64,000 nucleotides of DNA from Asparagopsis taxiformis (Eukaryota > Rhodophyta > Florideophyceae > Bonnemaisoniales > Bonnemaisoniaceae): the NCBI GenBank assembly GCA_030407315.1, contig JALQPE010001689.1:62001-126000 (forward strand). Direction: 5' to 3'. A model generated the notes under the pieces. That model had not been told where the DNA came from, did no database searches, and saw only the letters and a list, made by a program, of their open reading frames with translations. Of this stretch, positions 1 through 25,757 are shown piece after piece (position 1 is the stretch's first letter; each line of letters opens with the position of its first letter). A program made the position numbers and the translations under genes.

Positions 1-113
1 TAGACCAGGATGGATGCATCCACTGAAATGATATTTGCTACAACACTGCTGTACTAAGCGTGACATCCTTCAAAGCAATTCTCCTTTTAGCAAACTCCAA
101 TTGCAAGGTCAAG

Positions 114-1640
114 ATGAATCCCGAAACCTCCGTAAGCATCGCCGCATTTTCCGAAATAACGCGTGAGGGCTTTTCGAACATCACTGCAGAGTTGAAAGCC
201 CTGAGTGATAAAATGGATGCCGTCGAGAAGAGCACCATTCAATTACGCGAGACTCTCGGAAATGTCGCCAAGACTGTCTCCATGCTAAACACCGATATGC
301 AGGAGGTCAAGAGCATCGTCGATGGGCTTCTGAGCCAGGGACAAGGACATCCGAAGAAGATCGCCTCCGAGAAGGACAGGGAACGTCTCCGCATTGCGCA
401 GGATGCGGAGAAATCGTTCACGTTCGAAATGGTGTGTGCTGTGCTGTGTGCTGTTGTTCCAACGTACACGAAGGCAATGGTGGATAAGAGGGATAGGCAT
501 TTCAACGGATGCCAGCTAATCAATACGCTGATGTTCGCCAGGCAGAGCAATGAGCGAAAGGATGTGTTCAATAGGACGCTTGCCGGCCGGAACCACATTG
601 AATTGCGCTGCCAAGTTGTGACCTCTTTAATCAAGAATACGTGTCAAAACAATTCTTTCAGAGAGGGAGGAGACCGTTCCAGCTCCAATGGAACGTCGGA
701 AGGTATCGAACGGTGGAGGGCGCGGGGGTATGTGACTACCGGGACCATTGAGGAGACAATTCGCGGAACGGACTCTGCTCGCATGGATGGAATGCATGGG
801 ACGTCCGAGGGAAGTGATGGGGCCGCTCGAAAGCAGAAGCGAAGAAAGGTTGGAGACAATGGGCCGTTGCACAGAAAGGAGGTAGGCATCACTGTGACGA
901 AATCGGCACTCACAGCAGTGACCGGGTTTATGAACAAGTCCAGAGATCATGTGCGAAACCGGTTCATCCGAGATCTTGGATTCGTTCTATACAGTGGGTT
1001 TCAAGGTTCAGTCCGAATGGAGCATCATTTGCACGACGGTGGGCTGGACATTGAGTCAGTTCCAAGTCTGTACTCGGCGCAGAGGAAAATGAATGCAGCG
1101 GAGCGTGCAGCAATGGATGACAAGAATATGAAGATTCTTCGCGACTTCATTGCAGTGCGAAAAGAAATGCTATTCAAAGTCGAGTACGAAGTTCAAATAA
1201 TTGGAGAACCGGACAAGAGGTTTTTGACTAGGAGGATCAATTTAGTAGAGGTTGCACTGAACTTTGCAGTCGCCTACACGCAATGTTCTGATAAGAACAT
1301 GTTCCTGCGACGTTCAGAATACTCCTTGCAATTCATCTACATACTTGCATACGGGTTCCGAACGATTTTGAAATTTCAAAGTGGAACAGAGGTGGAAGGA
1401 GCGCAAATCCGGGAAATCAATGAAGCAGTGAAACTGCTTCTTCCCGGGGAGCGGGTGAGTAGTCGGTTCATGAATGAGGAGGTTTTGACTATATCGCGTG
1501 ATAGATATGAAGAACTGAACGTAGACGATGGGGGGGAATCAGTGCTGGAGGAGAGCTTCAGGTCTATGGAAGAGGACGGAGGAGATGCAGAATATGTGAA
1601 GGTATTCGTCGATGATGAAATCGAGAATGAAGGGGAGTAG
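114..1640 (+). CDS. Transposon companion protein, coiled-coil, TNPA-like role suspected (copy 1)
   Basis: The 508-residue protein starts at the ATG at 114, because the second copy (42959-44485) begins at the same codon and the upstream frame here has no other ATG. Residues about 20-90 form a heptad-rich coiled coil. A basic nuclear-localisation-like run (RKQKRRKV) sits near residue 240, followed by a conserved block with VTKSALTAV and a spaced R..R..LGF pattern shared with 39604-41127 and, more weakly, 54950-56812. The tail is acidic. I recognise no catalytic motif or named family. It lies next to the element's left terminus and converges with the Tudor-like gene. By analogy with TNPA of En/Spm, which binds subterminal repeats, it may bind the element ends; that is inference. 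Confidence 0.85.
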   Translation: MNPETSVSIAAFSEITREGFSNITAELKALSDKMDAVEKSTIQLRETLGNVAKTVSMLNTDMQEVKSIVDGLLSQGQGHPKKIASEKDRERLRIAQDAEKSFTFEMVCAVLCAVVPTYTKAMVDKRDRHFNGCQLINTLMFARQSNERKDVFNRTLAGRNHIELRCQVVTSLIKNTCQNNSFREGGDRSSSNGTSEGIERWRARGYVTTGTIEETIRGTDSARMDGMHGTSEGSDGAARKQKRRKVGDNGPLHRKEVGITVTKSALTAVTGFMNKSRDHVRNRFIRDLGFVLYSGFQGSVRMEHHLHDGGLDIESVPSLYSAQRKMNAAERAAMDDKNMKILRDFIAVRKEMLFKVEYEVQIIGEPDKRFLTRRINLVEVALNFAVAYTQCSDKNMFLRRSEYSLQFIYILAYGFRTILKFQSGTEVEGAQIREINEAVKLLLPGERVSSRFMNEEVLTISRDRYEELNVDDGGESVLEESFRSMEEDGGDAEYVKVFVDDEIENEGE

Positions 1641-1915
1641 TATCGGATGAAACCAGTTTCGGTGTAGTAGACGAAGAATGAAGAAATAAAATTTCTGTTG
1701 AGGTGAATTTTGTAATAGATGGAAGTAGATAGGTGCGAGACATCAGGAAACCAGTCAGACGATAGTGTCAAGTCGAAGGAACAGCGCAGAGACAGGTAGT
1801 GGAATAGTCGAAGTAGGAAGGGGCGAGGGTATCCGTCTTTACTAGAAATTGATGGCCACAGGAGCTCTAGAATGGAATACCCAGGAACAGGATAACTACG
1901 GATAGGTGTGCTTTA

Positions 1916-3277
1916 TCATTTTTGCTCCGGACTGCAGGTGGCAGGTGGAGGAGAGGGTGGGTGGGTAGTGTCTGAATCCGCATTGAAGCCAAGACGAGAG
2001 ATAGCCTCATAGCCAATGTCTTCAAGCTCCTGGCATATAGTAGTACCACTGAAAATACAGCAAGGTAAGCGTAGATGTAGTGTACCAAACGTCTCTGCGG
2101 TTGATAGAGGCTGGAAAGTGCTGTAACAAGCTCGGCGCTGAATACGTCTCCACAGTAACGAAAACGTTGCTCCATAAGTAACAGTAGCCTTATCACGTAG
2201 GTGGAAAGAGTCCACGATGCTAGACTGTGATAGTTGGCTAAGACATAGGGGATGTAAAAATGTATTGTTGACATGGTCAAACTCGTAGGAGTCTCTGCAA
2301 AGAACTGTCATACGTTGGTCTGGGCTGGACAGGACGTAAGCAGATGAGCCGACGAGAAATGCGGAAGAAGGAGCATCATGAGAGCAGTCAACGTCGACTA
2401 GATTTCCTAAAATTCGGACAATCGATGAGCTGCCTCCATCGCGTTCCGCCCTGCTCTTCACCAATATTTTCTGGAACCCGTGTTGCGAGGTACCTATGGA
2501 GTCACATAGTGCCTGAAAGGTGGGGAAAATGATGGAAAGATCCGACTCATTTCCAGAGGGAAAGGTGATGTCCTCAAAGGACGGCAGGAAGAGAACATCA
2601 CGATTCTCTTTCGCCTTGCATTGAATGGCAATAGTGCGGAATTGAGCAAGGGAGCAGTCAGCCTGTACTCTGATTTCTTCTTGCGATGTTTGTCGCATTC
2701 CCCTGGAGTGCTCGGATTTTGTCATCCGGAGGGAGAGGGGCTTGTCCGTGTACACACCAAGCTTCTGAAACAGAATGCTACATACAGTCAGAGCAGAGGA
2801 GGTCATGGAGCTGTTGGAATCGAATGGAGGGGGAAGAGGATGTTTGGCAGCTGACTCCAGCTTTTCCAATCTTGCCAGCATTTCTGCTATGGTCTTCTTC
2901 ATTTGATCCGCAGTGCAATCTTGAAGGATGCCGCGGTGGCGGTGGCGAGTGTGGTCAATGCCGTAGTCCGGGTCTCTCTCTGCTGGGGATGCAGGTGAGT
3001 CCATACTGCGAAGCTCACCACTTCGCCACGGGAGAACCCTTCCGGAATCCTTGTCGACGAGCTCGTTACGATCTGAAATCTTGACTTGAGAAAGGGTAGA
3101 GTCGAAACCATATTCAGCTTTGTATTCGAGCAATGCATGGAGGAATGGGTCTGTTTCGGTCTTGACCTGAGTAATTTCCTTGACGATTGCAGACCACCAC
3201 ACAATTTTTCGTTTCCTCCCAAACGGCCGAAGTTCCCATTGAACTTCTATAACGTCGTTTGGAGCGAGAGGAAGCAT
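1916..3277 (-). CDS. Tudor-like domain protein with coiled coil, transposon-borne
   Basis: A 453-residue ORF from the ATG at 3277. The first 75 residues resemble a Tudor/Agenet-type barrel: a V.V.W strand, then VWWSAIVKEI, then a long loop and a strand ending in QVKISDR. Such barrels commonly read methylated lysine or arginine, but I cannot assign the aromatic cage. A short coiled coil follows at about 128-142, and the rest is an unrecognised globular region that includes the block PCCIFSGTTICQEL. A decayed homologue lies at 38370-38991 (+) beside another companion gene, again convergent with it, so the pair is a conserved part of this transposon family. In the 42053 element only its last codons survive, cut by an insertion at 44856. 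The ATG is about 510 bp from the divergent methyltransferase gene, suggesting a shared promoter region. Confidence 0.75.
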   Translation of the reverse strand: MLPLAPNDVIEVQWELRPFGRKRKIVWWSAIVKEITQVKTETDPFLHALLEYKAEYGFDSTLSQVKISDRNELVDKDSGRVLPWRSGELRSMDSPASPAERDPDYGIDHTRHRHRGILQDCTADQMKKTIAEMLARLEKLESAAKHPLPPPFDSNSSMTSSALTVCSILFQKLGVYTDKPLSLRMTKSEHSRGMRQTSQEEIRVQADCSLAQFRTIAIQCKAKENRDVLFLPSFEDITFPSGNESDLSIIFPTFQALCDSIGTSQHGFQKILVKSRAERDGGSSSIVRILGNLVDVDCSHDAPSSAFLVGSSAYVLSSPDQRMTVLCRDSYEFDHVNNTFLHPLCLSQLSQSSIVDSFHLRDKATVTYGATFSLLWRRIQRRACYSTFQPLSTAETFGTLHLRLPCCIFSGTTICQELEDIGYEAISRLGFNADSDTTHPPSPPPATCSPEQK

Positions 3278-3790: not shown

Positions 3791-6700
3791 ATGGAAGGAA
3801 CGTTCCACAATCACGGTGAAAAGCACGACGGATGGGTGTTCATCGACCCCAATCAAGTCAGCAAATTCGTATCGATTCGCGATGTTGATGCAAGTCATGT
3901 GGAAGCGCTCATGGAGAGCATTCGCAACAGCGGTTATGACACAGCTCATCCCGTGACTGGCAGGTTTCGAGAAGGCGTTCTGGAGATATTGGATGGAGCG
4001 CACCGCTGCATGGCAATTGTACGTGGAATGGAGAAGGGCGTCTTTCCTCCTGGCGTTACGATTCCTATGCGAGAAGAGTCTATCGTGGCGGACACCAACA
4101 GCAGTACTGCTGTTGTGCTGGACCGTGTGAGAGCGACGACATCCAACGACATTGCAGGCCTGCAAAGGCGCATGATGTTTGTTGAGTATCTGATGATCGC
4201 CGTTGATCTCAGAGACGAGTACTGGGTCCAAAAAGGAAAGGACAAGTACGCTCATATTTCGTCTGTGAGGATGGCCGATGTGTTGGGCTGGATCAAGTCC
4301 TGCGATCCAAGCGGCCAAATTGCTTCAAGCCTGAGTGGTAAACCGCAGTACAGCTCATGCATGTCTATCCTGGCTGTGCTTCGGCCGTATCACCGAGCAG
4401 AAGATTCGAGTGCGATTGATTTGCGTCTGTGGCAAATGTTTTGTCATGCATGGGGACTCAATGCAGAGATGGGTGATTCTCCGAGGATGGTTGAGTTTCC
4501 GAAACAGGTGGGGGTGACTAGTTCTCGTGCCGTCGAAATGTTTGGCAAGACACCCCGCGGAGAATTGTCCTCTCCACTGAACCGCGAACTGCTTTCGAGC
4601 AGGTACTTTCTAGACGGCGCTACATCCGACATGCAAGATTCTTTGCAGGCTAGCCAGAAGCGGTTCAGGAGGCTGATGGTTATGATGTGCCAGTGTATCT
4701 TGGCTATTCGCAGTAAGGAGATGGGCAGTGCGCCATCTAGGCGGGCCAGAGCCACATCCGGGGCCATTGGTGGTGGTGGAATGGTTGGAATTGCAACATC
4801 CAGTGCGCAAGCCAACCAGCTTGGATTTGTTGTCGACCGTGTGTTAGCTGCGTGGGATACCGGGGCAAGAGTGTTGGGGTATGAGGATGTTGAATCGATG
4901 TGCTGGCCGTTCATGGTATTCGATCCTGCGAGCCTTTGCTTCAGGTCACTCCCGAATCGGTCTGATGGCTGCGCGGTCGAGGAGCATCGGAAAAACCTGA
5001 CCATTGTCCCGAAAACTGTAGACAGTGAAAACGGGTTCTGTGCCGACCTTCCAGTGGCTGTGGATGCAAGGCTGCGATCATTGACAAGCGCCTTCCTGCT
5101 GTCGATACGCCAATGTGTCACTGAGGTGAATGTGTTCGCCGAGCGTGGTCAGCTGATGCAGAGACTTCGAGCCTTGCTTTTCGACACTCCTGACAAGTTC
5201 GGATTGAACTCGTTCATGCGAGCCAAGTTGAACACGTCTCATGCCCTGGATGGTCAGAGGAGGCTGAAGGCTTGGTTATTGCGAACCCGAGAGCAACGAA
5301 AGCTTCCTCTGACCATGGATGAGTTGCACAGTCTTGAGGATACGCCCGAGCCTGGCATCCTTGAAGGTGCACCTGCGCAGATGGAAATATCCGCAGCAGT
5401 GCCAAACAATGGCAGCGAGGATATAGAAGAGGATAGTCTGGAGCCACAGAGGAAGAAGGCTAGGCTGGAGCGCGGTGGTGGAGAGGACGATAATGCGGCG
5501 GTTGCTAGCGAAACAGCAACAAGAGAAGGTGCGGCCGAGGATGACGCTATGGAGGTTGACACTGTATCGCCTACAGAAGCACCGCTCGTTGACGTCGGAA
5601 AGGAATCCAAGCCGGAATATGTCACCAAGCTGGAAGCTGTGATGGGGCGTTACATTCACACTGTGAATTGTGACGCCACTGATGTAGCCAAAGAGGTGGA
5701 GGACAAAATTAGTTTCCTGGAAGATGGCGTGTTGGAGGACAGTGTTCAGCTTGTGCTCACTGATCCTCCATTCAACACGAGGCGGGAAGGCGGCAGAGAA
5801 AACTCGGAGTACGATATTCTGGAGCCGGAAGAGTTGGCGAGTGTTGCGTGTGAAATAGTTCGAGTTCTTCGGCCTGGCGGTCATGCTCTAATCTATTCCA
5901 GCGTGCGCCAACTCGTGGCATGGATGGATGCAATCAGAAATGCCGAGCCTGGCAAGATGATTGTGGACAGTGTTCCAGTCGTGCTATCTCGCCGACCACA
6001 CAGCTTTACGTCCAATCCATCGACGAAAACGTGCACACTGCATAATATGCACGATTTCGTTATCCATGCGTATAAGCGGGGGAAGGGTATGGCTGCATAC
6101 GATATGGTGGATTACAGGTTGCACAATCCGGACATATCGAGGCACCCTGGGTTCACCAACGCGATTGACAACGTTCCGAGGTTGTCGGCTGGTGAAGCTC
6201 AATACGATGGGCAGAACAACCGACTGCGCCATGAGCAGAAGGCGTTGACCACTCTTCGTGAGCTTCTGGAACGATTTTCGAAGCAGAACGATATCGTGAT
6301 GGATTTCTTCTCGGGAACATACAGCACAGCCATAGCGTGTATGACGTTGAGGGATGGTACGTATCGTCGGTTCATTGGGTGTGAGAAGGAAAAAAGGTGC
6401 CACGATGCATCGCAGGAGTGGATACTGCATGCTTTCGTCAGTGAGGTGAAAGCCGGGCGATATGGGGGGATCTTGCAGCGTGAGGTGGAGAGTATTCTTG
6501 GGGACGAGTCGGTACCGGTCACAGGAAAAGCTCCAAGGCTTCGTCAGAAGCACATCTCAGATGCACCAGAAGGTTTACCTGCTGTGACAGCATTGCCGAA
6601 CCATCTGCTTGTGTTCGTTGCGTCAATGAAGAAGGACGGTTCTATGCTTCACAGATTGAGCGGGGTGCCTATGGACCAGTGGCCGGCCGAGGACATGCAC

Positions 6701-7258
6701 TCGTTTTGGAGCATAGACCCGGACGCGATTCTGGCTGCTGATGCCGCATTCTACGGTGTCTATGTTTCGCAATCGGAGGTAAGAGGTGGTGGGTTTGGCG
6801 TATTCGCGGCGAAGAAACTGAAGAAGGGGACGGTCATTGGCTGGTACAACGGGACGATTTTCTATGCGAAGATTCGAGACTCGGAACCGCAGAGATCAGT
6901 GATGTACGGCCCGGAAGGATTTGGGTGCACAGGACAGAGGTTCCAGGACTACAACATGGAATTGGAAACCACGTACATAGGGAGGGGTGCACCTGTTCGG
7001 AAGGTCTGGCTCGTTCCAGCGGTCTATAATTGTACCAGCTACCTCAATGATTGTCGGGTCATTGACGGAACGGAGAAAGCGACCGAGGTGAGTCGAACAC
7101 AGTCAGCCGAGTTTCGACAAGGCGATGCCATAGACAAACCGGACTTTGCTTCGAATATCAAGAATCCCCATGCTGTCAAGGTCGTTCTGACCAGAGACGT
7201 TGAAGCTGATGAGGAGATATTTGCTGACTATGGTAGAAAATATTGGCCAGCTAACTGA
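3791..7258 (+). CDS. ParB-like domain / beta-class DNA amino-methyltransferase / SET domain fusion
   Basis: 1155 residues from the ATG at 3791 (GCCATGG). Residues about 20-95 form a ParB/Srx-like domain with DGAHR at 68-72. A helical region follows, then an acidic linker with a basic QRKKAR stretch near 550. The methyltransferase has motif IV DPPF at 658-661 before motif I (DFFSGTYSTA, from 838), preceded by a RHEQKALTTL block. The order IV then I is that of beta-class bacterial-type N6-adenine/N4-cytosine enzymes, not MT-A70. Residues about 990-1150 are a SET domain: GGGFGVFA at 999, WYNGTIFY, SYLNDC in place of the usual N-H-x-C, and EIFADYG near 1146. It may methylate element DNA and a chromatin lysine. 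Either activity could be lost, since the SET N-H-C site is atypical and motif I has DFF for the usual DPF. Modification type is not determinable from sequence. Confidence 0.88.
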   Translation: MEGTFHNHGEKHDGWVFIDPNQVSKFVSIRDVDASHVEALMESIRNSGYDTAHPVTGRFREGVLEILDGAHRCMAIVRGMEKGVFPPGVTIPMREESIVADTNSSTAVVLDRVRATTSNDIAGLQRRMMFVEYLMIAVDLRDEYWVQKGKDKYAHISSVRMADVLGWIKSCDPSGQIASSLSGKPQYSSCMSILAVLRPYHRAEDSSAIDLRLWQMFCHAWGLNAEMGDSPRMVEFPKQVGVTSSRAVEMFGKTPRGELSSPLNRELLSSRYFLDGATSDMQDSLQASQKRFRRLMVMMCQCILAIRSKEMGSAPSRRARATSGAIGGGGMVGIATSSAQANQLGFVVDRVLAAWDTGARVLGYEDVESMCWPFMVFDPASLCFRSLPNRSDGCAVEEHRKNLTIVPKTVDSENGFCADLPVAVDARLRSLTSAFLLSIRQCVTEVNVFAERGQLMQRLRALLFDTPDKFGLNSFMRAKLNTSHALDGQRRLKAWLLRTREQRKLPLTMDELHSLEDTPEPGILEGAPAQMEISAAVPNNGSEDIEEDSLEPQRKKARLERGGGEDDNAAVASETATREGAAEDDAMEVDTVSPTEAPLVDVGKESKPEYVTKLEAVMGRYIHTVNCDATDVAKEVEDKISFLEDGVLEDSVQLVLTDPPFNTRREGGRENSEYDILEPEELASVACEIVRVLRPGGHALIYSSVRQLVAWMDAIRNAEPGKMIVDSVPVVLSRRPHSFTSNPSTKTCTLHNMHDFVIHAYKRGKGMAAYDMVDYRLHNPDISRHPGFTNAIDNVPRLSAGEAQYDGQNNRLRHEQKALTTLRELLERFSKQNDIVMDFFSGTYSTAIACMTLRDGTYRRFIGCEKEKRCHDASQEWILHAFVSEVKAGRYGGILQREVESILGDESVPVTGKAPRLRQKHISDAPEGLPAVTALPNHLLVFVASMKKDGSMLHRLSGVPMDQWPAEDMHSFWSIDPDAILAADAAFYGVYVSQSEVRGGGFGVFAAKKLKKGTVIGWYNGTIFYAKIRDSEPQRSVMYGPEGFGCTGQRFQDYNMELETTYIGRGAPVRKVWLVPAVYNCTSYLNDCRVIDGTEKATEVSRTQSAEFRQGDAIDKPDFASNIKNPHAVKVVLTRDVEADEEIFADYGRKYWPAN

Positions 7259-12300: not shown

Positions 12301-12997
12301 CATCGACATATTGCAGTCGTACTTTTGCATTGGAATCAATCACCTCGCAGACGGACACGCGTGAAGCAATCACGGAAAATCCCTGAGTGAGAAACGTTTT
12401 CTTCAACTCATCAACGCGATGCGGCCTGACCACCCTGGACACGACTGCCGGAGGAGAAACATCCAGGGGGGAAATGAAGACTGGAATGTTTCGGCAGCTC
12501 TCCGGACTTATGTCGTAGTCCACATCCACCGGGATGGGCACTGTGCCAGGGTAGGCCAGCCTGGTGCTGCGGAGAGGCTTGTTCGGTACGATGTCACGAG
12601 CGTTGTGATCATCGACCTTCTCCGCATCCTCTGCCAAGTCGCTGCCGGACGCGATGATCATGTCCGGAGCAGGCGAGCTGGGCAGAGGAGCACCAGATCC
12701 CTCGACGGCTGGCGCCGCTTCGGCAGATTGAGCCGGAAGCGGAGTTGCGGGAACGCCAGCGTCGATTGTCGGGACAACCGCGGGATCGGAAGCGGAAGGG
12801 GGGGAGGGGACGGGCTTAGGTGCTGGGCTGAGCTGGGTCAGCGCTGCAGCAGCTTCGCAAACGTCCATGGGGACAGGGGGGGCCAGAGAAGGAGAAGGAG
12901 AGGGAGAAGGAGAGGGAGAAGGAGTGGGAGAATCGTTGTCACGGCGGCTGGCAGAGCGCACCTGGCGGTCGAAAGCGTTGGGGGATTGTTGAGCCAT
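9351..12997 (-). pseudogene. ParB-like / 2OG-Fe(II) dioxygenase fusion, interrupted by one frameshift (paralogue 1)
   Basis: Two overlapping frames form one gene homologous to 14574-17834. The upstream frame, from ATG 12997, carries a Pro/Ala-rich leader, a ParB-like domain with YVDGSHRVTALKA, and a helical block (TVADNVCSVMEF, YWSSIPNRPEF). The downstream frame carries a long Ser/Pro/Glu linker and a double-stranded beta-helix dioxygenase: HTD at 646-648 of that frame, distal H at 718 (DLYHYG), R at 741. Comparison with the intact paralogue puts the break near the G4 run at 11557-11560 (minus-strand reading); one lost base or a -1 ribosomal slip would explain it. Both halves keep their key residues, so the lesion is recent, an assembly error, or programmed. 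The HxD...H...R pattern defines the superfamily; the substrate is unknown. Confidence 0.78.
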
Positions 12998-13204
12998 TGC
13001 TTTGGTGAGTGATTGACAAACGAAGAGTGAAAGATTGAGAAAGAGAGAAGAAGATCTGAACGACAAGCTGTTTTGCTGCGTAAGCTGAGTAAGATAGGCG
13101 AAACTTAGAGATCTGACATATTCCTATTAGTATACACCCTGGTAATGATATTCAGCGGTTGACCAATCCGAACCTTCCACATCACTTTTCGTTGTACGAC
13201 AATT
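12998..13204. promoter_or_regulatory. Upstream region of dioxygenase gene 1
   Basis: About 200 bp between the ATG and array 3. The palindrome array immediately upstream could act as an operator or silencer; this is inferred from position only. Confidence 0.25.
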
Positions 13205-14573: not shown

Positions 14574-17500
14574 TCAGATATCTAAACGCTCCCAGTAGTT
14601 GACATTGAAGGGAGGCTGTAGCAACTTCTCCCTGGAAGTTCGCAGTGATAGATGGGACCGGATAGGATGCTGGTACCTCACCGAAGAACGACCCTCCGCG
14701 AATCCCATTCCTCCGTGATACACGTCCGTTCGGCATACAAGCAGGGAATACGGTGGGATGCGCACGTTCGTCACTGGCACGCGGTACTTTTCTTTCGCTG
14801 GATGACTTAGGCACACATGGCTGAACTTGGCGATACGAATGATGAACCCATCCGCACCAGCAGCCATCATGAAATATGATGGCGAGTTGAGAGGACCAGT
14901 TCCAGTTCCCTCACGGACGGGAACATCGGTATGCATAAGTTGCTCCTGACTACCTTCTGCGGTCAAAATCAGACGAAGACCCGTTTCTGGAAAGACCACC
15001 GCTTCTTCTCTTCCAAACCCGAGCTTCAGGTTCTCCGCACAAATCGCCTTACCTAGCTCCAGAATCAGCTTGTTCCTGTACTGCCGCGCGCTTTCTTGCT
15101 CAAGGTCATCGCAGATGCTTTTCCGGTCCGTCTTGAATACACCAGTGCTGTCTTTCGGTCGAAGTGGTTTCCACGGGTTCTTCTGACTTGCACTTGAGCC
15201 ACTTGTAGTACCTTGGAATGTGCTGGCCATCTGTGTGAATAACTCGTGCGTAGCTGCTCCCACTGTAGTAGAAGAGAAAATGTCTTGCAACACCACGTAA
15301 CCAAGCTCGTCGATCATTCTTCTCTGGTAGCTGAAGTATTGTTGGCTTTCACAAGAACCGAGGGGACATACCAAAGTAGAGTAGCCTGCAGCTGCTTCCA
15401 TTATCTCCGTCCGGATTGTATCAATGTCTTCTTCTGTGATATAATACTTCATTCTCGAGTTGGAAGGAACGCATAAAGGCAGCTTCTCAGGTATGTCCTC
15501 TGCGAATGTGCGGTCTGGAAGGGAGTTTTCTTGCTCGTCAGTGAAGAGTGGTGCTTCTTCTCCAGTCGTTCGTTTTCTTGCATTGACTCTACTCTTCTTT
15601 TCCCGGGGAGGCCCAATCTCAATGTTGTCATCCGGCGTATTGGGCTCAGAAAACTTCGCGCTAGTATCTTCCCTTCTTCGCTTCTTATCCAACCTGGACT
15701 CGTTTTCATCGCCGCTTCCACCAGAACTCCTGCTTCTTCCCGAATTCTCCTTGTCCACTTCGGCCGGGCTAGTGCTGTAAGTTTCTGGTGTCCTGATTCG
15801 AAGTTTCAATATCACAGAGCGGTTCTGCGCATCTCCAGCTTGTTGTCCAGGCGTGTCTATGTCCATGCGACCACTATTGTCCAAGTTGATATCCAGACTT
15901 TGCGTATCGCCGCTTTGTTTCCTTCCCTGAGGAAGATCTTCTCTGACAATCCTTCCCGGCGAATTATCCCTGGCACGACTTTCCCGCTCTGCCCTTGAAG
16001 CTGAAAGACGTTCCTGTTCTTTTTGGAGAACAGCAAGACGTTCTGCTTCCCTCTTCTCAGCTGCTGCAAGACGCGTGGCAGGACGTTCCTGTCCTCCCTC
16101 TTTTGCTGCGGCAGGACGGTCTTCTGCTTCTTTCGGGGTGCTCAGAGGTGCCTCTTCTATTGCTTTCGTCGCGACAGCAGGAATCACTTCTTCAGCCACC
16201 ACATTTGGAGTAATTTCCTGTTCTTCCTCCACAACAGCAGAAACTTCCTGCTCTGCTTGGGCTTCGGCAGATACTCCTTCTTCTGCTTGAACAGGACCAG
16301 AAGTTTCCACAGTTTCCTTCTCTGTAGAATTATTTCCCTGTTCTGCGGCAGTAGGTGCTTCTTCGTCTTCTGCTTTGGCGCCATCAACAAGTGCTTTTTC
16401 TATTTCTCCGGGGGTCATGCGATTCCGTTCCCTCTCCTCCTCCGCTTTCGTCTCCTGCATTGCCTTTGTCCCGGTAGCATATTCCAGTTTGTCGTAAAAA
16501 CTGTTTGTAAACATCCCGTTCTTGGTTCTCAGACTGCTACTGTCTACCACGTCGTCATGAAAGTCGACAAGGACGAATACAATGCGCTCTCCAATGCGAT
16601 GATCATTATCCCCGACCTCCTTCGCGTTTTCTGCTGCCAAATCCGTTCGCACGAATTCCTCCATCGTTGCAGAGTTCAACCACTTGCGGACGACCTCTGC
16701 CATATCATAGATGGCCAACAGAGCCAGTAGCCAAGTGCGCATCGTGAACGGACTTCCGCTTCCGATATTTCTGACAAGTCCTCTCTTCCTCCTCATCCTT
16801 GTCCACGACGCTGTCATCTCGAGCACAAACCACTGGAACCACTCCTTATCGCGCGTCCCGCGTCCGTCCGTGCCATTGCGGAATATTGCGTTATTGACAA
16901 GATCGAGCACGCACCCGTACATATCGGCAGAGTCAATTCGAGAAAAGTCCGGATCTCTTCCCTCGGTTCTTGCATCCTCGATTTCTCTGTTCCTATCCAA
17001 AGCATTGTAAACGCTAGGGATAGAGCTCCAGTACACGAAAGCAACGCTGTCTGTGCGATTGAACCCCTTCGCAATGTTGATGTACTGCCTATACGAGTTC
17101 TCCGAACGGTTCCTGTCGGACGGCAGAATATAGCTCACTTCTTTCAGAATAGGAATAAGCCGGACAACAGGAAGATCCATCTGGTTGGAAAACCTGAGAA
17201 ACTCTATGACCGCACACACATTGTCGGCAATGCTCACAGAAGCGACATCGTGAGTTTGTATATTGGCTTCGAGAGACAGTTTCAGAACCTCCAGCGCATC
17301 GAAAATTAGACGCCCGTTCGGCGCAATCAACTGTTGTACCCAAACCAATTCCAAGGAATCCCTGTTCTTTCCTGAGTACTTCTCCAGGCATAGTTGCAGA
17401 GCAGCTATGCGATGAGAGCCATCGATGCAGTAAAACTCGTCTCCTTCGTTATCTTCCATTTTGCAGACTGTAATCATAGTTCCAGTGGTAGAGAAACCTC

Positions 17501-17834
17501 TATCCATGAAAATGCTGGCCAGTTCGTTTACACGACCCGGTCGCACCAAACGGGAGGTCACTGTCGGAAATTTCACTTTGCGAGGATCAACTTGCACTTT
17601 AGAAGAGCTGTACTGAGCAATAGTGATGCTTTTCTCTTCAGCAGAAGGAGAATTGCTCTTCTCCGCTGTAGTATTCATGATACTATTGTCTCCCATTGTA
17701 ATCCCTGCAATCTCAGTTCGTTCAATCGGTTCTCTGTTCAAATGTTGTGTAGACGATGAAATCCACAATTGTGGTACCTCCGAGTGCGCTTCCCGTCTCT
17801 CAGCTTCCTCTCTTATACTGTCCGGACAAGACAT
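14574..17834 (-). CDS. ParB-like / 2OG-Fe(II) dioxygenase fusion, intact (paralogue 2)
   Basis: 1086 residues from the ATG at 17834. A ParB/Srx-like domain spans about 85-200 with DGSHR at 138-142 and a helical extension (SIADNVCAVIEFL; YWSSIPS). A long, charged, low-complexity Glu/Ala/Arg-rich linker (about 440-800) contains basic KKRRR and KKSR patches. The C-terminal 250 residues are a double-stranded beta-helix dioxygenase: H968-x-D970, distal H1040 in DVYHGG, and R1059, which normally binds 2-oxoglutarate. Ahead of them is a helical cap with MKYY and CAENLKLGFG. Oxidation of a nucleic-acid base is the obvious hypothesis, given the ParB fusion and the known TET/JBP and AlkB members of this superfamily, but the substrate is not established and a protein or histone substrate is possible. 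Palindrome arrays lie on both sides of the gene. Confidence 0.85.
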   Translation of the reverse strand: MSCPDSIREEAERREAHSEVPQLWISSSTQHLNREPIERTEIAGITMGDNSIMNTTAEKSNSPSAEEKSITIAQYSSSKVQVDPRKVKFPTVTSRLVRPGRVNELASIFMDRGFSTTGTMITVCKMEDNEGDEFYCIDGSHRIAALQLCLEKYSGKNRDSLELVWVQQLIAPNGRLIFDALEVLKLSLEANIQTHDVASVSIADNVCAVIEFLRFSNQMDLPVVRLIPILKEVSYILPSDRNRSENSYRQYINIAKGFNRTDSVAFVYWSSIPSVYNALDRNREIEDARTEGRDPDFSRIDSADMYGCVLDLVNNAIFRNGTDGRGTRDKEWFQWFVLEMTASWTRMRRKRGLVRNIGSGSPFTMRTWLLALLAIYDMAEVVRKWLNSATMEEFVRTDLAAENAKEVGDNDHRIGERIVFVLVDFHDDVVDSSSLRTKNGMFTNSFYDKLEYATGTKAMQETKAEEERERNRMTPGEIEKALVDGAKAEDEEAPTAAEQGNNSTEKETVETSGPVQAEEGVSAEAQAEQEVSAVVEEEQEITPNVVAEEVIPAVATKAIEEAPLSTPKEAEDRPAAAKEGGQERPATRLAAAEKREAERLAVLQKEQERLSASRAERESRARDNSPGRIVREDLPQGRKQSGDTQSLDINLDNSGRMDIDTPGQQAGDAQNRSVILKLRIRTPETYSTSPAEVDKENSGRSRSSGGSGDENESRLDKKRRREDTSAKFSEPNTPDDNIEIGPPREKKSRVNARKRTTGEEAPLFTDEQENSLPDRTFAEDIPEKLPLCVPSNSRMKYYITEEDIDTIRTEIMEAAAGYSTLVCPLGSCESQQYFSYQRRMIDELGYVVLQDIFSSTTVGAATHELFTQMASTFQGTTSGSSASQKNPWKPLRPKDSTGVFKTDRKSICDDLEQESARQYRNKLILELGKAICAENLKLGFGREEAVVFPETGLRLILTAEGSQEQLMHTDVPVREGTGTGPLNSPSYFMMAAGADGFIIRIAKFSHVCLSHPAKEKYRVPVTNVRIPPYSLLVCRTDVYHGGMGFAEGRSSVRYQHPIRSHLSLRTSREKLLQPPFNVNYWERLDI

Positions 17835-19169: not shown

Positions 19170-22100
19170 TCATGCAGCCCTCGGTGGAAATCCGTCTCGC
19201 CTACATAGTGCATATATCTCTCCACCCTCCAGCAGTCCGGGTCCGTGCCTTACCTCCCTCATGTTCTCATCATATTCGCATACACTCCCATTGCAATAGT
19301 GCATACCAAACACCTCAGTGACTCCCTCACTCATCTCCACAATTACTGTTCGTCGCCTCTCTTCGACCTTGAACACTCCTTCATCAGTTTTTTGCAAACC
19401 CAGGCAAACTCCATAAGCTGTACCTTGCTCATCTCTCGCACTCTCGTTCCTCAGGATAAAGAACGCTAGAACAATAAAAAACCGCGGTTCATAATTAATT
19501 CTTCCCCGCATTATCTCTGATGTGAGACGAGACGCCGGGTACAGAATCGCTTGTGAAGTTGCACCATCCTCACATTTCATCTGTTCAGGGCAAACAGCAT
19601 GGATGATAGCTCCTGATTCTAGAGAGCCAGACCTCTGCACTGTTTTCCTTCCCCACTCTGTCGTAGTGCTTCTAGAAACTCTTCTCACCCATTCGGCATA
19701 CTTTCCACACCCGCTTGTTCCGCTTCCGTACCTTTCGGTAAAGAACCGTTTGAAAACACCTACAGCACCCTCTGCCATATCACATTTTCCATTCATGTAC
19801 TCCTTGACCTCGTCAATAGATATACCTCCATGCCCTCTCCACGTCACAATTTCACCATCCGCCGACAATATCTTTCCTCGACGCTGGGAGAGAAGCTGGA
19901 GAACCGGTTCCTGGAAGCAGTTTTTCACTACCTCGTCTTCCACATCTATTTCTCTCCCTAGCTCCTGTGAAAGAACGTTGACCATTTGAGAGCATTCGGA
20001 CGAGGACCAATGTTGTGGCTCCATGCCGATTTCGCGCAAAACAATGGCCACTCTCGTCTGCCAGTCATCCGCAAGAACTAATTCCAGCGCTGAAAGCTGT
20101 TCGCTTTGGTGATTGGACATTCTCACACCTTTCTTCAGCGGCTGATGCATCCGTTCGAATATAAGCTCCTGCACGTGCTTCACAGAGCCGTAGGCAGGAA
20201 GCGTATGAACACAAAACTCGACAAGACGATGAACATTAGGCTTGTCCAAATGTGCTCCTGCTCCCTTCACTTTCCGACAATACTCATTCAACGTCTCCAC
20301 GTAGTCTACAGTTCTTCCCAGAATGTATTCATTCCTGCCACCTTCTCCGTCAGCCGTCTCTACTTCATGGGGACCGTCTTTCCACCATACGGGCATGAAA
20401 CTAATACACGAAACCAGCTTCTGAAACATCACTACTAGTTTGACGGCCCCATCAAATTTTTCACGATGACCTTCCCCTTTCCCATCCATCATTCGAGCTG
20501 CGTTTTCGAATGCCATAGGTGCTATCAGAAGCACACTGAATATGTCACTCATGTTCATGGAAAGCAGATTGTTGGTTCCAAATAAACGGTTCTGCCTTCC
20601 CATCCTGAACTTCTTCAGAGCGCCCAGAATTTGCAATTCAGCTACCTCTCGAATTCGTGGGCTGGCAGCTGAAATACAAGCGTTCAGTACATCTTGTGCC
20701 AGTCCAGACAATAGATGGTCAGGTGCTATCACTGCGGAACGGTACGGGTCAAAAATTGCTGGGACAACTGAAACTCCGTTTTCCGTCTTCGGTACTTCTT
20801 CCTGCACTGCTTCCAAGGAAGTGCTCAGGACATGAAATGGTAAATCTTCCCCTTCTTCTGCAGCCAGTCCGAGAGTGCGAAGCTGGGTTTCTGTGGCATC
20901 CTTACGTGTCGATGCATTCCGATACTTGCTCCTGGCATGCGTCGATGTTTGCCCGTTCACTACCGAAGTGTATGCATTCTTCGTGCCACCAGTACTGCTC
21001 AGGTCATATTTGCGGAAACTGCAGATGTGGCACGGAGAGTTTGATGTGTGTCCAAGAACATCCAGGGTATGTGAAACTGCAGGATAGTCTCCAATGCTCC
21101 CCACTGGGTCTAGAAATACCACAATATCTTCTCCCTCTGCATTTTTCGTTGGGAAACCCTCTGTGCTTCCTCGCACTATATCTTGAACGATATATCGCAA
21201 TACACAATTTGTGGACACTCCCGGAGGTGGCAAACCAATCACTCGAACCGCTTGGTAGCTTCCCCTTTTCCGAGGCGGTAGATTGAGAGGTAACATATAG
21301 CATCCACCAAAACTTCCCTTCCTGCTTGTGAATGGTTCAAAGTCATCCGTGTAAAGGAGAAATCGGTAAACAAAGTAGTTTCGACCATCCTCCAGCTTTC
21401 CCCAACATGGTGCATCTTCTCGCGGAGACGCTGGGTGCCATTGCGACCTGTGGTCTCCGAAACCATCCGAGAACACCCCTGAAACACGAATTTCTTCATA
21501 GTTGGGGCTTCCTAGTCTATCGGGCGGGTTTCTGGCTTCAGCAAAGCTCGCGCCCGGTGAAAAGCAAAGTAACATGGTGGATGCTTCTCCGACCTGCTCT
21601 TTCAAATACCTGTTCACCAATACGACGTGTGGAACAATATCACCCTCTTCCATTCCAATTGGTAATAGAACGGTTATCACGTCCCCAGCTCGTGTTCCTT
21701 TTCCCTTGGCTCCTGCTCCGATTACACATTGCGATATCGCTCGCAGAGCATGCTGCCTCTCCCATTCCAATAGATGTGACATTCGCGGCTGCAGATATTT
21801 TTCGACATGCACATCATGCTCACCGTCGTGTCGAGCCTCATAGGTAACTATGGTCCTAGCATGAAGTTCCCACAACGACGTAACCGCCACTCTTCTCCTC
21901 TTCGGTTTCCCACCATCTCTGTCATTCTTCCTGAACCCTTTTGCTCTTTCGATGACGGCAACCTGACGAGCTCCTGGATGACATCGGATTCGAATTGCTG
22001 TTCCATCAGGTACATAAATGTGCTTCAAACCCTTTTTCCCATCGCTGTCAATGGGAACAACTGCTGTGCGAACGAATGGGTCGCTCAAAACACCCCTCCT

Positions 22101-22973
22101 GCACTTTGCAATGAACGAATCTTCAATGCTGCACTCTGCGGTTGATTTTTCTCCTTCCGAGCTTCGATTGTTCGCATCACTGCGGAATGCTTTAAAGATT
22201 GGTCGAGTCTGGACATCTTTCAGAGCCCATGTGCTTGGGAGTACAATACGAACTTTCGCCATTCCTCCACAATTGTCTCTGTCATCTGTTGTTCCACGGG
22301 TTCCTACTGCACCTCGATGCTGTGCAGCTCTTGCTCCGCTCTTTCGAAGGTCTATCGGAAACTCGATGTCACAGCTCTTTGCATAGCAGTGTTTCCTCAA
22401 GAATGGTAGTATCTTCTGTCGCATCACAGAGTCCGACGGGACGTGCTCACTTGGATCTCTGCGGAAATTCATTCCGAACAGGGTACCTTCATAGTGGGCT
22501 CTTGTCATTCTTTGAGTTCCACTCAGCTGAAGAGCCCCATACATCGCAGGCCATTGTAGTAATGCCTTGAAATCACCACATGCTTCATCCCCAGCATTTC
22601 GGTCTATCGGGCCTCCAGTTGAAATGGAATCAGAACCTCGTCCGGTTGCTTCTTCCGATTCCATTAGCGTGCTCGATGCTACGTAGATGTCACTTCCAGC
22701 TTCATCGTTGTTGCTGTACACATCAATACAACCTTCTATTGTGTCACCCATAGGGATTGGGGACTCCAATAGGTCATCTGTGGTACACTCACGTCGTAGC
22801 TCATTACCTCTCGGGATTTCTTTGTTCATGCAGGCTGCATCACTGCTGCGGATTTCTCCCTGCAGTTTCCCAGGAAGCTGTTTACTGGGACTGGCCACAT
22901 TGAGTGAATCGAATCTCGCCTTTGTCCTACGACTTGTGGTTTTCTTTCGAATAGGAGTCCGTCTCGGAGCCAT
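19170..22973 (-). CDS. CACTA-like DDE transposase
   Basis: 1267 residues from the ATG at 22973 (A at -3, G at +4). The core matches the CACTA/Plavaka/KDZ group. A first-Asp region LYTDDFEPF followed by GSFGGCY and LPLNLPP lies near 548. GDYPAVSHT then a CHIC zinc-knuckle-like pair lie near 629-650. PDHLLSGLAQDVL lies near 750, in the place of the usual D.LH..LG block. H.LVEF...G....V.ELIFERMHQPLKK, near 930-945, would supply the catalytic Glu. Assignment rests on motif order, not on a search. The N-terminal 200 residues and a C-terminal SAD-like tail are unassigned. It would cut at the CACTA termini. It reads inward from the right end of the element. The frame is open with no lesion seen, so this copy could be active. 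Confidence 0.8.
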   Translation of the reverse strand: MAPRRTPIRKKTTSRRTKARFDSLNVASPSKQLPGKLQGEIRSSDAACMNKEIPRGNELRRECTTDDLLESPIPMGDTIEGCIDVYSNNDEAGSDIYVASSTLMESEEATGRGSDSISTGGPIDRNAGDEACGDFKALLQWPAMYGALQLSGTQRMTRAHYEGTLFGMNFRRDPSEHVPSDSVMRQKILPFLRKHCYAKSCDIEFPIDLRKSGARAAQHRGAVGTRGTTDDRDNCGGMAKVRIVLPSTWALKDVQTRPIFKAFRSDANNRSSEGEKSTAECSIEDSFIAKCRRGVLSDPFVRTAVVPIDSDGKKGLKHIYVPDGTAIRIRCHPGARQVAVIERAKGFRKNDRDGGKPKRRRVAVTSLWELHARTIVTYEARHDGEHDVHVEKYLQPRMSHLLEWERQHALRAISQCVIGAGAKGKGTRAGDVITVLLPIGMEEGDIVPHVVLVNRYLKEQVGEASTMLLCFSPGASFAEARNPPDRLGSPNYEEIRVSGVFSDGFGDHRSQWHPASPREDAPCWGKLEDGRNYFVYRFLLYTDDFEPFTSRKGSFGGCYMLPLNLPPRKRGSYQAVRVIGLPPPGVSTNCVLRYIVQDIVRGSTEGFPTKNAEGEDIVVFLDPVGSIGDYPAVSHTLDVLGHTSNSPCHICSFRKYDLSSTGGTKNAYTSVVNGQTSTHARSKYRNASTRKDATETQLRTLGLAAEEGEDLPFHVLSTSLEAVQEEVPKTENGVSVVPAIFDPYRSAVIAPDHLLSGLAQDVLNACISAASPRIREVAELQILGALKKFRMGRQNRLFGTNNLLSMNMSDIFSVLLIAPMAFENAARMMDGKGEGHREKFDGAVKLVVMFQKLVSCISFMPVWWKDGPHEVETADGEGGRNEYILGRTVDYVETLNEYCRKVKGAGAHLDKPNVHRLVEFCVHTLPAYGSVKHVQELIFERMHQPLKKGVRMSNHQSEQLSALELVLADDWQTRVAIVLREIGMEPQHWSSSECSQMVNVLSQELGREIDVEDEVVKNCFQEPVLQLLSQRRGKILSADGEIVTWRGHGGISIDEVKEYMNGKCDMAEGAVGVFKRFFTERYGSGTSGCGKYAEWVRRVSRSTTTEWGRKTVQRSGSLESGAIIHAVCPEQMKCEDGATSQAILYPASRLTSEIMRGRINYEPRFFIVLAFFILRNESARDEQGTAYGVCLGLQKTDEGVFKVEERRRTVIVEMSEGVTEVFGMHYCNGSVCEYDENMREVRHGPGLLEGGEIYALCRRDGFPPRAA

Positions 22974-23932
22974 CTTGATGTTTTTGTTCTTTTCTTCTTC
23001 GCTCAGTTTTGTTGCATAGAATACAACTCTAAACTTCTATGACATGACTACTATCTCAATACAGTACTACTACTTTTAACCGTTACGAAACCTTTCCAGG
23101 CTTTCATTCGATCCAATGAACTGGTTCACCACAATGCTTTGCCCTATGCTCATTGCTTTATGCACATTGATTGCTATTTCATCCGGACTCAACATCGTTT
23201 TGCTATCTTGTATCGCATCCCCTAACCACAAACCCAGCCAAGATGTATCCATTTCCGGAAAACGGCCGTTTATTTCGCAGTGATGCTCTAGGCACTAATA
23301 CTGAATCTGATTTTCTCATACACGTACTTCCTACTCGTATACTCTACCATTTTCGGCCCTATTTACAAGTTGAAAGCACAATCTCTCGTTGAATCGTACT
23401 CGGTGTGATATCTTAAATTAGCATAAATTTATATATTGCAATGCAGATTCACTGCTCGCTTGCAACATGAAAATTATAAAATTTCTCCCACACTGCTGTT
23501 TCCTAGCCGCCCACATCCACGTGGCCCGCTTTGACTGCCTGCCAAGTGTGCTCAGAGCATGCAATGACGTCATCGATATATACCGTCCAAATCATCACTG
23601 GAAGCGCGGACTCCTCGTCCAGGAAAGTGCGCCATTTTTCCTACTCCTCGCCTCCCCCTTTCCAGTAGGCCCGATATGCTAGTGTTTTTCCTATATTTCT
23701 GTAGTGATGACGTCATTATAGACTAGAGAAGGCGGTAGAAGATACAATAATTTTGCGCCTGTTCTGCCAGGTCATGTGCTTCAAAGCGTAATTCGCACCC
23801 TAGGTATCGTTTTTCTGGGCCTCCCATCGCACCGCTCCGTTTCAAATTCATCCCTCTATTGTTAGAGTACACGTCATTTCCGCCCGCAGAGTGCTACTTA
23901 AACAACAGATTCTGGAGATCCCTGTTTCCATC
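22974..23932. promoter_or_regulatory. Upstream region of transposase, no gene seen
   Basis: About 960 bp, AT-rich, divergent between the transposase (-) and the hairpin/spliced locus (+). A CTTAAA box at about 23897 could serve the rightward transcript. No repeat array is present. Confidence 0.35.
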
Positions 23933-24404: not shown

Positions 24405-24780
24405 ACTTTTCTAGTAGTTTTAGTTTTACTCGTCGGAATAGTGTTAGTTGTAGTAGCATTTTTAACATAGGGATTGTTTATTCTCAATGTAGCCTGCGCA
24501 AATAAACAAATCCAGAGTGAAGCTTCCCATATCGCACCCTCTTAGATTGCTACCTATCCTACCGCGTATACCTCTCGCTAGCTCATAGTCACTACGAAAT
24601 AAAAATTCCTAGCCGTACTATTCTGTCCATTCCCATATGAATACCGTCCATGCCCCATCCTCATAGCGCTAGAACTGCCTTCCTCTACCCCAGAAAGATG
24701 CCCACGACAGCGTGACGCTCCATCTCATCCACCACTCCCAGACACCGAATTTTACTATATCAGGACACTACTTTTACTGT
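24405..24780. other. Intergenic before subterminal repeats
   Basis: About 375 bp with a CAAATAAACAAA stretch near 24500 that could serve as the polyadenylation region of the spliced candidate. No gene is seen. Confidence 0.35.
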
Positions 24781-25400
24781 CTCCAGGTGCTGCCCAGGGC
24801 AGCACGAAATACTGTCTCCAGGTGCTGCCCAGGGCAGCACGAAATACTGTCTCCAGGTGCTGCCCAGGGCAGCACGAAATACTGTCTCCAGGTGCTGCCC
24901 AGGGCAGCACGAAATACTGTCTACAGGTGCTGCCCAGGGCAGCACAAAGTACTGTCTACAGGTGCTGCCCAGGGCAGCACGAAATACTGTCTACAGGTGC
25001 TGCCCAGGGCAGCACAAAGTACTGTCTACAGGTGCTGCCCAGGGCAGCACAAAGTACTGTCTACAGGTGCTGCCCAGGGCAGCACAAAGTACTGTCTACA
25101 GGTACTGCCCAGGGCAGCACAAAGTACTGTCTACAGGTACTGCCCAGGGCAGCACAAAGTACTGTCTACAGGTACTGCCCAGGACAGTGAAAATCACTGT
25201 CTCCAGGTACTGCCCAGGACAGTGAAAATCACTGTCTCCAGGTACTGCCCAGGACAGTGAAAATCACTGTCTCCAGGTACTGCCCAGGACAGTGAAAATC
25301 ACTGTCTCCAGGTACTGCCCAGGACAGTGAAAATCACTGTCTCCAGGTACTGCCCAGGACAGTGAAAATCACTGTCTCCAGGTACTGCCCAGGACAGTGC
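24781..25400. repeat. 35-bp subterminal tandem repeat, about 18 units
   Basis: A 35-bp unit containing the palindrome GTGCTGCCCAGGGCAGCAC and then ATACTGTCTCCAG. The units drift in order: GTGCTGCC...GGCAGCAC first, then TACTGCCCAGG, then ACTGCCCAGGACAGT towards the end. They sit 350-950 bp inside the right terminus, as expected of CACTA subterminal binding sites. Confidence 0.95.
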
Positions 25401-25549
25401 ACCGTGTTGGTTCCATCTATTGTCCCAGGCAGCGTATTTCACTATCCGGCCATGTTGCCTTGGCCAATACAAAACACTATCCGCCAACACTGCCCAGTAC
25501 AGTAAATTACATCATATCCAACTATTGAATAAATCATTAATTTTTACTG

Positions 25550-25757
25550 TCTCCATTCACTGCCTCAGACAGTACTGTGAGACAGTGTTTTTTACTGTCT
25601 GCAGACAGTGTTCCGTACTGTCTGCCAGACAGTGCAAATCACTGTCTCCAAGTGTGGCATTAATTTTCATTTGCCGCATAGTGATTTTTACTGTCTCAGA
25701 CAGTAAAAATCACTGTCTCGCAGTACTGTCTGAGGCCCCCTTTTCAACACCGTAGTG
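25550..25757. repeat. Right terminus of the CACTA-like element with subterminal ACTGTCTGAGACAGT motifs
   Basis: Several direct and inverted GACAGT/ACTGTC motifs lead to the sequence ending CAACACCGTAGTG at 25757, the inverted form of CACTACGGTGTTG. The base after the end is T of TAG. No matching target duplication can be tested because the left tip is outside the window. Confidence 0.85.

Follow-up and report, generated by a model that had tools for sequence, protein, structure and literature searches.

Do the genes for modification proteins at this locus of the red alga Asparagopsis taxiformis form a single mobile element, and what could such genes do for a transposon? The window, i.e. the whole stretch of 64,000 nucleotides that was analysed, had been described in an earlier note as opening with a giant CACTA-like transposon that encodes its own writer, eraser and reader. 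We examined the ends, the copies and the proteins of this transposon, hereafter element A, and compared it with known systems.

Extent, copies and superfamily of element A

Element A is a 26.5-kb CACTA-tipped DNA transposon, one mobile unit with all six genes: a coiled-coil protein, a 'Tudor-like' protein, a methylase-SET fusion, two dioxygenase-like proteins and a divergent transposase. The open reading frames lie at the places and in the order given before. Positions 1..25757 (+ strand) had been taken as bounded by CACTA-type tips. These bounds hold, with the correction that the element starts outside the window and is 26,546 bp long. Its left tip, CACTACGGTGTTG, predicted about 0.8 kb upstream, was found as an exact match 789 bp before base 1 (contig C1569:61212; L009:9212), and the right terminus is, as described, within the stretch, where a 13-bp terminal inverted repeat (25745..25757, - strand) is the inverted copy of the left tip. 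Allowing one mismatch, the window contains four tips of this type, against 0.08 expected.

We then searched the genome for other copies. The ends of the family were found 680 times on the left (degenerate 30-base pattern) and 887 times on the right (24 bases), with 0 matches for the reversed-pattern controls; except for these two, the copy counts for the genome are lower bounds. Tip-to-tip spans were 26,511 bp in C632, 26,406 bp in C337 and 26,148 bp in C168, for which the tips alone were read. The C632 copy is 99.95% identical to element A of the window over 26.2 kb, and identities of 97-100% were observed among the 40, 110 and 122 best-scored copies over the stretches compared. The family thus appears numerous and young, and many of the scored copies have unbroken frames.

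The same gene arrangement recurs in these copies, as the earlier note would have it. The methylase gene is present in 28 of 40 left-end copies, at 5,741-5,748 bp from the left end in 26 of them and at 5,590 or 5,663 bp in the other 2; for the remaining 12, none was found among the matches listed (this tally took in the contigs common to both match lists). Similarly, dioxygenase 2 was scored 4.8-5.1 kb from dioxygenase 1, on the same strand, for 60 of the 110 scored copies of dioxygenase 1. Because these offsets are near-constant, gene-by-gene nesting was rejected as the origin of the cassette. In the copies read, a non-systematic look revealed no separate termini for the modification genes.

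Target-site duplications, proposed earlier as a check, were found in part of the copies. A 2-bp duplication flanks 6 of 10 shorter copies and 7 of 14 end pairs overall (about 1 expected); the other 7 pairs, including the full-length C632 and C168, show none, and no pair out of 14 shows a 3-bp duplication. The ten short copies were picked by eye, on strand and spacing, among the first 100 places listed for each end pattern, and at least five other eligible-looking pairs (C174, C228 twice, C121, C221, C44) were left out. For the window copy, the exact junction pattern expected of an unoccupied site had no match in the genome, and C2127 was discarded as an empty site for C632, since the corresponding position is occupied there by an A-type insertion. 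The left neighbour of the window copy is another A copy, inverted and truncated at the tip of A, and its remainder was not found on the right. Together with the missing duplications of C632 and C168 and with the C337 contig, which ends at the element tip, this is what might be seen if the 26.5-kb unit were an assembly chimaera of smaller repeats. Such an artefact is nevertheless extremely improbable, the order and spacing of the genes being the same in many contigs; the flanks of some copies are likely wrongly paired, but not the interior.

The description as CACTA-like stands for the termini and the subterminal repeats. The 13-bp repeat at both ends has the CACTA...TAGTG form with short terminal inverted repeats of CACTA/EnSpm (CMC) elements, and the ACTGTC motif occurs 16 times in the first 500 bp, 37 times in the last ~1,050 bp and 10 times in the rest, a 35-bp tandem array (24635..25579, + strand) being part of the right subterminal repeats. 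A 3-bp duplication, a Pfam match of the transposase and the H(3-4)H part of the transposase hallmark were not found. Classic CACTA elements have 3-bp target-site duplications, while 2-5 bp are reported for the wider CMCT group (PMC12730594), so that the 2-bp duplication of element A fits this wider group and not classic CACTA. The 1,268-aa protein encoded at 19170..22976 (- strand) is likely the transposase, predicted to be of DDE type from its GDYP...CHIC...FERMH motifs (residues 649, 669 and 960). The CMC hallmark consists of C(2)C and H(3-4)H between the second D and the last E (PMC12730594); a simple pattern found no H(3-4)H in the GDYP-FERMH interval. This transposase has no match in Pfam, and no match to the Plavaka domain PF18759 was found in element A.

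Proteins encoded by element A

The methyltransferase-SET fusion named in the earlier note as the writer was confirmed. This protein of 1,155 aa from its ATG (3791..7258, + strand) lies in a single frame of 1,186 aa (3698-7258), in which the N6_N4_Mtase domain (5744-6415; E 2.4e-16) and the SET domain (6791-7234; E 4.4e-6) both exceed the Pfam cut-offs, as they do in families A, B and C. PHROG matches were a DNA methyltransferase (4e-23) and a ParB-like partition protein (0.003). The canonical SET motif is of the NHS type; at this position, the SET domain of element A reads ND.

A ParB-like module, absent from the earlier note, heads this fusion (3860..4060, + strand; motif DGAHR), and the same motif is common to the starts of all three modification proteins, i.e. 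the fusion and both dioxygenase-like proteins. Its R, L, G and DGxHR residues are invariant across five proteins. Compared with the dioxygenase N-termini by hhalign, the module of the fusion gave an E-value of 0.041 at a probability of only 1.3%. No Pfam ParB match was obtained for the ParB-like modules, and the structure model (pLDDT 36.6) was too low for a fold search. The genome also contains two other families of ParB-methylases that have no SET domain, and the methylase alone may therefore suffice for the role of the cargo.

Two further genes had been read as dioxygenase fusions, the eraser of the kit. In 2OG-Fe(II) dioxygenases, a double-stranded beta-helix carries an HxD...H metal triad and an R that binds 2OG. 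Their HxD...H...R motif is present, and from this motif alone we predict that they are 2OG-Fe(II) dioxygenases; support from Pfam, NCBIfam and the PDB was not obtained. Dioxygenase 1 (9351..13123, - strand) is one gene, broken in the window by a 1-base deletion near 11559. This deletion occurs in 0 of 5 other copies compared, two of which (the upstream copy and C44) carry different breaks; the L037 copy has two stops. As 33 of the 110 scored copies contain the full 1,257-aa frame (the other 77 do not show it) and the deletion was in none of the five, we ruled out the frameshift as the normal state of the gene. Dioxygenase 2 (14574..17702, - strand) lies in a frame of 1,087 aa from 17837, and its HTD...YH...RxH motif (14574-15560, - strand) is C-terminal.

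This motif is invariant across three dioxygenase domains that are 39-48% identical. The domains matched no model in Pfam (even at E 10, for two domains), NCBIfam or PHROGs, a PDB sequence search with the domain gave no significant match, and an AlphaFold model (pLDDT 31.5) was too low for a fold search. Given the lack of support from Pfam, NCBIfam and the PDB, assignment to a named family (TET/JBP) was rejected, AlkB being a thought based on the motif only. Protein database searches returned one cluster each, 99-100% identical, among the matches listed. No viral or bacterial relatives were found, a weak negative as the search patterns did not span the catalytic motif.

The coiled-coil protein (117..1640, + strand) has 507 aa from its ATG, in a frame of 537 aa from 27; its Pfam matches are weak and all below cut-off. 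The 'Tudor-like' protein (1916..3277, - strand), proposed as the reader, does have an SH3/Tudor-like look at its N-terminus; no Tudor, Agenet or PWWP model matched it in Pfam or NCBIfam, and a PDB sequence search gave insignificant, unrelated matches only.

Related elements and the conservation of the cassette

Several other elements were found in the window, and nesting is common in this genome region. An 8-kb element with A-type ends (26135..34171, inverted, - strand) is likely an internally deleted derivative. The left end and coiled-coil gene of another A-type copy lie at 42053..44855 (+ strand); the identity to the left end of element A reported for this segment was recovered, at 97.3% over 2,807 bp (42050-44855). 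Between them, a decayed copy of family B (36869..41829, - strand), with its own CACTAC tip at 41829, has kept an unbroken coiled-coil protein (39604-41133) and remnants of the Tudor-like (38693-38925) and ParB-methylase (37939-38322) genes. Element C (51762..62827, + strand) encodes a Plavaka transposase (51762-54872, + strand; PF18759, E 1.7e-24), a coiled-coil protein (54950-56962, - strand) and a methylase-SET protein (59363-62827, + strand); its own tips were looked for and not found.

Overall, family B is 31-47% identical to A, as judged from the first half of one copy. The coiled-coil protein has a 39% identical counterpart and the 'Tudor-like' protein an unbroken homologue (33-35%) in this family. 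In the copy read, the Tudor-like (33%), ParB-methylase-SET (43%) and ParB-dioxygenase (31% N-terminal, 46% C-terminal) genes are unbroken and arranged as in A, with regard to both order and orientation. We also counted codon changes, using the frame of the window, which for dioxygenase 1 is incorrect in the part upstream of the frameshift. Overall, 26 of 49 changes were synonymous against the upstream copy (transposase compared over part of its length) and 40 of 98 against L037, for 23% expected if neutral; against the upstream copy, dioxygenase 1 (4 of 15) and dioxygenase 2 (3 of 11) showed no such excess.

These data bear on whether the modification genes are nested transposons or passengers without any role in mobility. 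The frequency of nesting here, the wide occurrence of methylase-domain genes in the genome (2,605 first-look candidates) and the absence of a synonymous excess in both dioxygenases are compatible with this reading. We nevertheless consider it very doubtful in view of the near-fixed methylase offsets in 28 of 40 copies, the three unbroken genes in unchanged order at 31-47% identity and the overall excess of synonymous change.

Among known systems, the giant DNA transposon Sola1-1_Ec32 of Ectocarpus encodes, on the strand opposite to its transposase, a 1,104-aa ParB-like and N4/N6 methylase protein proposed by the authors to bind and modify its own transposon (PMC12477816). Element A likewise encodes, opposite to its transposase, one protein with an N-terminal ParB-like part (PHROG match at 0.003, shared motif, hhalign) and an N4/N6 methylase. 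Unlike Sola1-1_Ec32 as described there, it adds the SET fusion and ParB-like modules on two predicted dioxygenases, and has a different transposase. For the red alga Bostrychia, giant EnSpm elements have been reported to carry accessory genes (Petroll et al. 2025, cited in PMC12477816). They are probably the nearest relatives of element A, also a giant EnSpm/CACTA-type element with several accessory genes, by the citing description and not gene by gene. Reports thus exist both of ParB-methylases in transposons of algae and of giant EnSpm elements that carry accessory genes in red algae, and the earlier statement that no element of this combination had been described was too strong in the light of these accounts (PMC12477816).

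Fungal transposons, including EnSpm and Plavaka, encode TET/JBP dioxygenases, for which escape from methylation-based silencing is proposed (Kojima 2025, PMC12730594). Element A resembles them in its transposon-borne, here predicted, 2OG dioxygenase beside a putatively CMC-type transposase, and differs in that this protein matches no Pfam dioxygenase model and comes with a ParB-like module and a methylase-SET writer. HarbingerS and MuDR elements of Phytophthora also are DNA transposons with a SET gene (Kojima and Jurka 2014, cited in PMC12730594). These belong to other superfamilies, and the citing account mentions no SET-DNA methylase fusion such as that of element A. Spm encodes the anti-silencing protein TNPA, and that of VANDAL is named VANC; to our knowledge, neither is an enzyme and neither has homology to the proteins of element A. 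The likeness would be one of working, i.e. that an element encodes what controls its silencing, in a sequence-directed manner, as reported for the anti-silencing proteins of VANDAL elements (PMC12730594).

Possible functions of the modification genes

With about an even chance of being right, we propose that, acting together, the proteins of this kit determine the chromatin state of the DNA of the element that encodes them, and likely prevent its silencing. The ParB-like modules would serve as a common address that brings the writer and the oxygenases to the element, perhaps by recognising the ACTGTC-rich subterminal repeats. The methylase of the fusion would add N6-methyladenine or N4-methylcytosine and the SET domain would methylate histones, while the oxygenases may remove or change marks, either the element's own or those laid by the host. 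The coiled-coil and 'Tudor-like' proteins may bind DNA or chromatin, and the transposase would move open copies by cut and paste.

Dam methylation gates Tn10, and the ParB-methylase could likewise mark the element's own ends, so that the transposase would act on DNA only when it bears the right mark or has just been replicated, with the oxygenases resetting the mark and host silencing not being the target. This self-marking is a rather less probable possibility. It is consistent with the ParB-like start common to the writer and the oxygenases, with the abundance at the ends of short repeats that could be bound, and with the presence of a ParB-methylase in a quite different superfamily, Sola1 of Ectocarpus (PMC12477816). 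However, it leaves unexplained the SET domain and the 'Tudor-like' protein, both of which point to chromatin.

SET proteins can be repressive, and the methylase-SET protein might instead silence the element's own copies as a control of copy number, with the oxygenases lifting the repression at the appropriate stage of life. Such restraint would be in line with the situation in the red alga C. merolae, whose transposons are covered by H3K27me3 and silenced by it (PMC13062707). We judge it unlikely: the element is numerous and young, with its best-scored copies 97-100% identical, and escape is therefore suggested over restraint.

Beyond the control of silencing itself, we tentatively suggest, as a possibility short of likely, a self-contained, self-addressed epigenetic system, in which one type of ParB-like address would head two dioxygenases as well as a methyltransferase of both DNA and histones. 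Writing and erasing would thus both be aimed at the element's own DNA, and the chromatin state would be inherited with the element instead of being set by the host. Such a system would be old, being retained in families that are 31-47% identical, and methylase-SET genes recur beside a different transposase, of the Plavaka type. The ParB-like/dioxygenase fusions would then represent a new class of candidate base-modifying enzymes. If so, a selfish element would pass on, as a single set aimed at itself, one writer for DNA bases, another for histones and candidate erasers, and it would become testable whether transposons use chromatin enzymes to escape silencing by the host or to time their own movement.

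Termini, copies and insertion sites of element A

The earlier note had forecast that element A, a CACTA-tipped element with six genes, begins about 0.8 kb upstream of the window. The left tip CACTACGGTGTTG was found there, at L009:9212 (a stretch of the same contig), 789 bp ahead of the first window base. With the right tip ending at window base 25757, the total length is 26,546 bp, and dense ACTGTC repeats are present at both ends. The window spans C1569:62001-126000 in a genome of 141 Mb and 3,156 contigs. The organism is photosynthetic and likely a red alga: PsbO lies in one unbroken frame, and its closest relative of solved structure is 7y5e, from Porphyridium. We searched this genome for other copies of the element. 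The tip-to-tip distance was 26,511 bp on contig C632, 26,148 bp on C168 and 26,406 bp on C337, and the C632 copy shares 99.95% identity with the window element across 26.2 kb. Using a degenerate left pattern of 30 bases and a right pattern of 24 bases, 680 left and 887 right A-type ends were identified genome-wide, while the reversed-pattern controls detected 0. Part of these ends belongs to shorter derivatives, among them the ten copies of 8.4-15.1 kb used below for the duplication test and the derivative at window 26135-34171. A left-to-right spacing of ~14.5 kb recurs on C4, C19, C101, C104, C116, C117, C192 and C215. At C20:85041-85215 and C214:6108-6282, a left tip is followed by an inverted right tip 151 bp inward, a recurrent nested structure.

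Classic CACTA elements generate a 3-bp target duplication. No such duplication was found in the 14 A-type end pairs, whereas 7 of the 14 display a 2-bp duplication, against a chance expectation of about 1/14: GA on C104, AG on C19 and C192, AA on C215, TA on C212, TT on C117 and TA at the window copy. The flanks of the seven other pairs (C101, C10, C59, C21, C632, C168 and the derivative at 26135-34171) do not match over 2 bp. The TA at the window copy may itself be a chance match, because an inverted A copy, truncated exactly at the left tip of the window element, adjoins this element on the left, the remainder of that copy is absent on the right side, and the expected junction had no genome match in an exact-pattern search. 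Pairing the flanks of full-length, near-identical copies is therefore unsafe in this assembly. This long inverted copy (C1569:42001-61211, stretches L010/L009) and the window copy stand head to head and are 98-100% identical in pieces. In addition, L041 (C2127:24300-27300) and C632:61072 have a common flank (98.7% identical), each with an A-type insertion, and the two insertions belong to two subfamilies that are 97% identical. This arrangement suggests a duplication with the element being replaced.

Linkage and state of the modification genes

We then compared the positions of the cargo genes with those of the A ends. Scored against the best 150 methylase matches, 28 of the 40 left-end copies listed have a methylase on the same strand, at an offset of 5,741-5,748 bp in 26 copies and of 5,590 and 5,663 bp in the other two; for the remaining 12, there was no methylase among the 150 scored matches. 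Similarly, with 110 scored copies of dioxygenase 1 and 122 of dioxygenase 2, a same-strand dioxygenase 2 lies within 15 kb of dioxygenase 1 in 61 of the 110 cases, 60 of them at 4.8-5.1 kb. The modification cargo moves together with the A ends, and element A is a genuine mobile element, present in many copies, whose modification cassette is conserved.

The methylase-SET frame (window 3698-7258; 1,186 aa) matches N6_N4_Mtase (E 2.4e-16) and SET (E 4.4e-6), both over the Pfam cut-off, and its N-terminus weakly matches a ParB-like phage family (E 0.003). This putative module is called ParB-like by motif, since none of the ParB families in Pfam matched and its structure model was poor. Five N-termini of this kind, including two from the further methylase families described below, have the residues R, L, G, D, G, H and R in invariant positions. 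The N-termini of the dioxygenase-like proteins align with the methylase start with an hhalign E-value of 0.041, at a probability of only 1.3%.

Dioxygenase-like proteins 1 and 2 are paralogues, and HTD...YH...RxH is kept in three dioxygenase-domain sequences. Searches of Pfam, NCBIfam and PHROGs gave no family for these domains, a PDB sequence search gave no significant match, and the structure model failed. In the window, one missing base breaks the dioxygenase 1 frame. This base is present in C632, C337, C44, C116 and the inverted upstream copy, of which C44 and the upstream copy are broken at other places. The full 1,257 aa are open in 33 of the 110 scored copies and the 787-aa version of the window occurs in 19. 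The 'Tudor-like' protein appears SH3-like from its sequence, with no Pfam, NCBIfam or significant PDB sequence match. The predicted transposase contains GDYP, CHIC and FERMH motifs in that order; it has no Pfam match, and a simple pattern search found no H(3-4)H in the expected interval.

Of the 49 coding changes that separate the window element from the upstream copy, 26 are synonymous (23% expected). The comparison with the stretch L037, covering the Tudor-like gene, methylase-SET and part of dioxygenase 1 (with two stops in L037), gave 40 of 98 (23% expected). All nine changes in the ParB half of dioxygenase 1 are synonymous (9/9), whereas this excess is absent in the rest of dioxygenase 1 (4/15) and in dioxygenase 2 (3/11).

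Related families and possible role of the cassette

The coiled-coil protein of the diverged family B is 39% identical to that of A, and its 509-aa frame is open in 84 of 84 scored copies (84 of 1,367 candidates). The window's own family B copy (36869-41829) is decayed. On C1778, a copy encodes unbroken Tudor-like (33%), ParB-methylase-SET (43%) and ParB-dioxygenase (31% and 46%) proteins, in the same gene order and orientation as element A, with methylase and SET both over the cut-off. This concerns one copy, read over 13 kb beside the coiled-coil gene; the stretch stops short of the other half, in which a second dioxygenase or a transposase would lie.

In element C (window 51762-62827), a Plavaka transposase is accompanied by a coiled-coil protein and by a methylase-SET protein that is 22-25% identical to that of A and has no visible ParB-like motif. 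The transposase of element C shows a collinear but not significant likeness to the predicted transposase of A. A first look for the methylase domain gave 2,605 candidates genome-wide. Three further methylase families were read: L038:1993-5313 and L039:2112-4943, which have a ParB-like N-terminus and, instead of SET, a Cys-rich tail, and L040:4525-6630, open only over the later part of the frame, where no SET was seen. Apart from these elements, frames at window 34564-36363 weakly resemble a fucosyltransferase (E 0.0057, under the cut-off) and are perhaps a host gene, and a 1,403-aa frame with no Pfam match lies immediately right of the window (L011:196-4407).

Red algae are reported to have giant EnSpm elements that carry several accessory genes (Petroll 2025, as cited in PMC12477816), and the citing paper describes accessory proteins of algal transposons, such as Sola1-1_Ec32 of Ectocarpus, in which a ParB-like domain is combined with an N4C/N6A DNA methyltransferase. 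PMC12730594 deals with TET/JBP in fungal EnSpm and Plavaka elements and cites SET in oomycete transposons. No publication combining methylase-SET and ParB-dioxygenase in one transposon was found, a weak negative drawn from titles and abstract openings with few subscription papers covered. Our best reading, to which we give about an even chance, is that element A would direct anti-silencing to itself.
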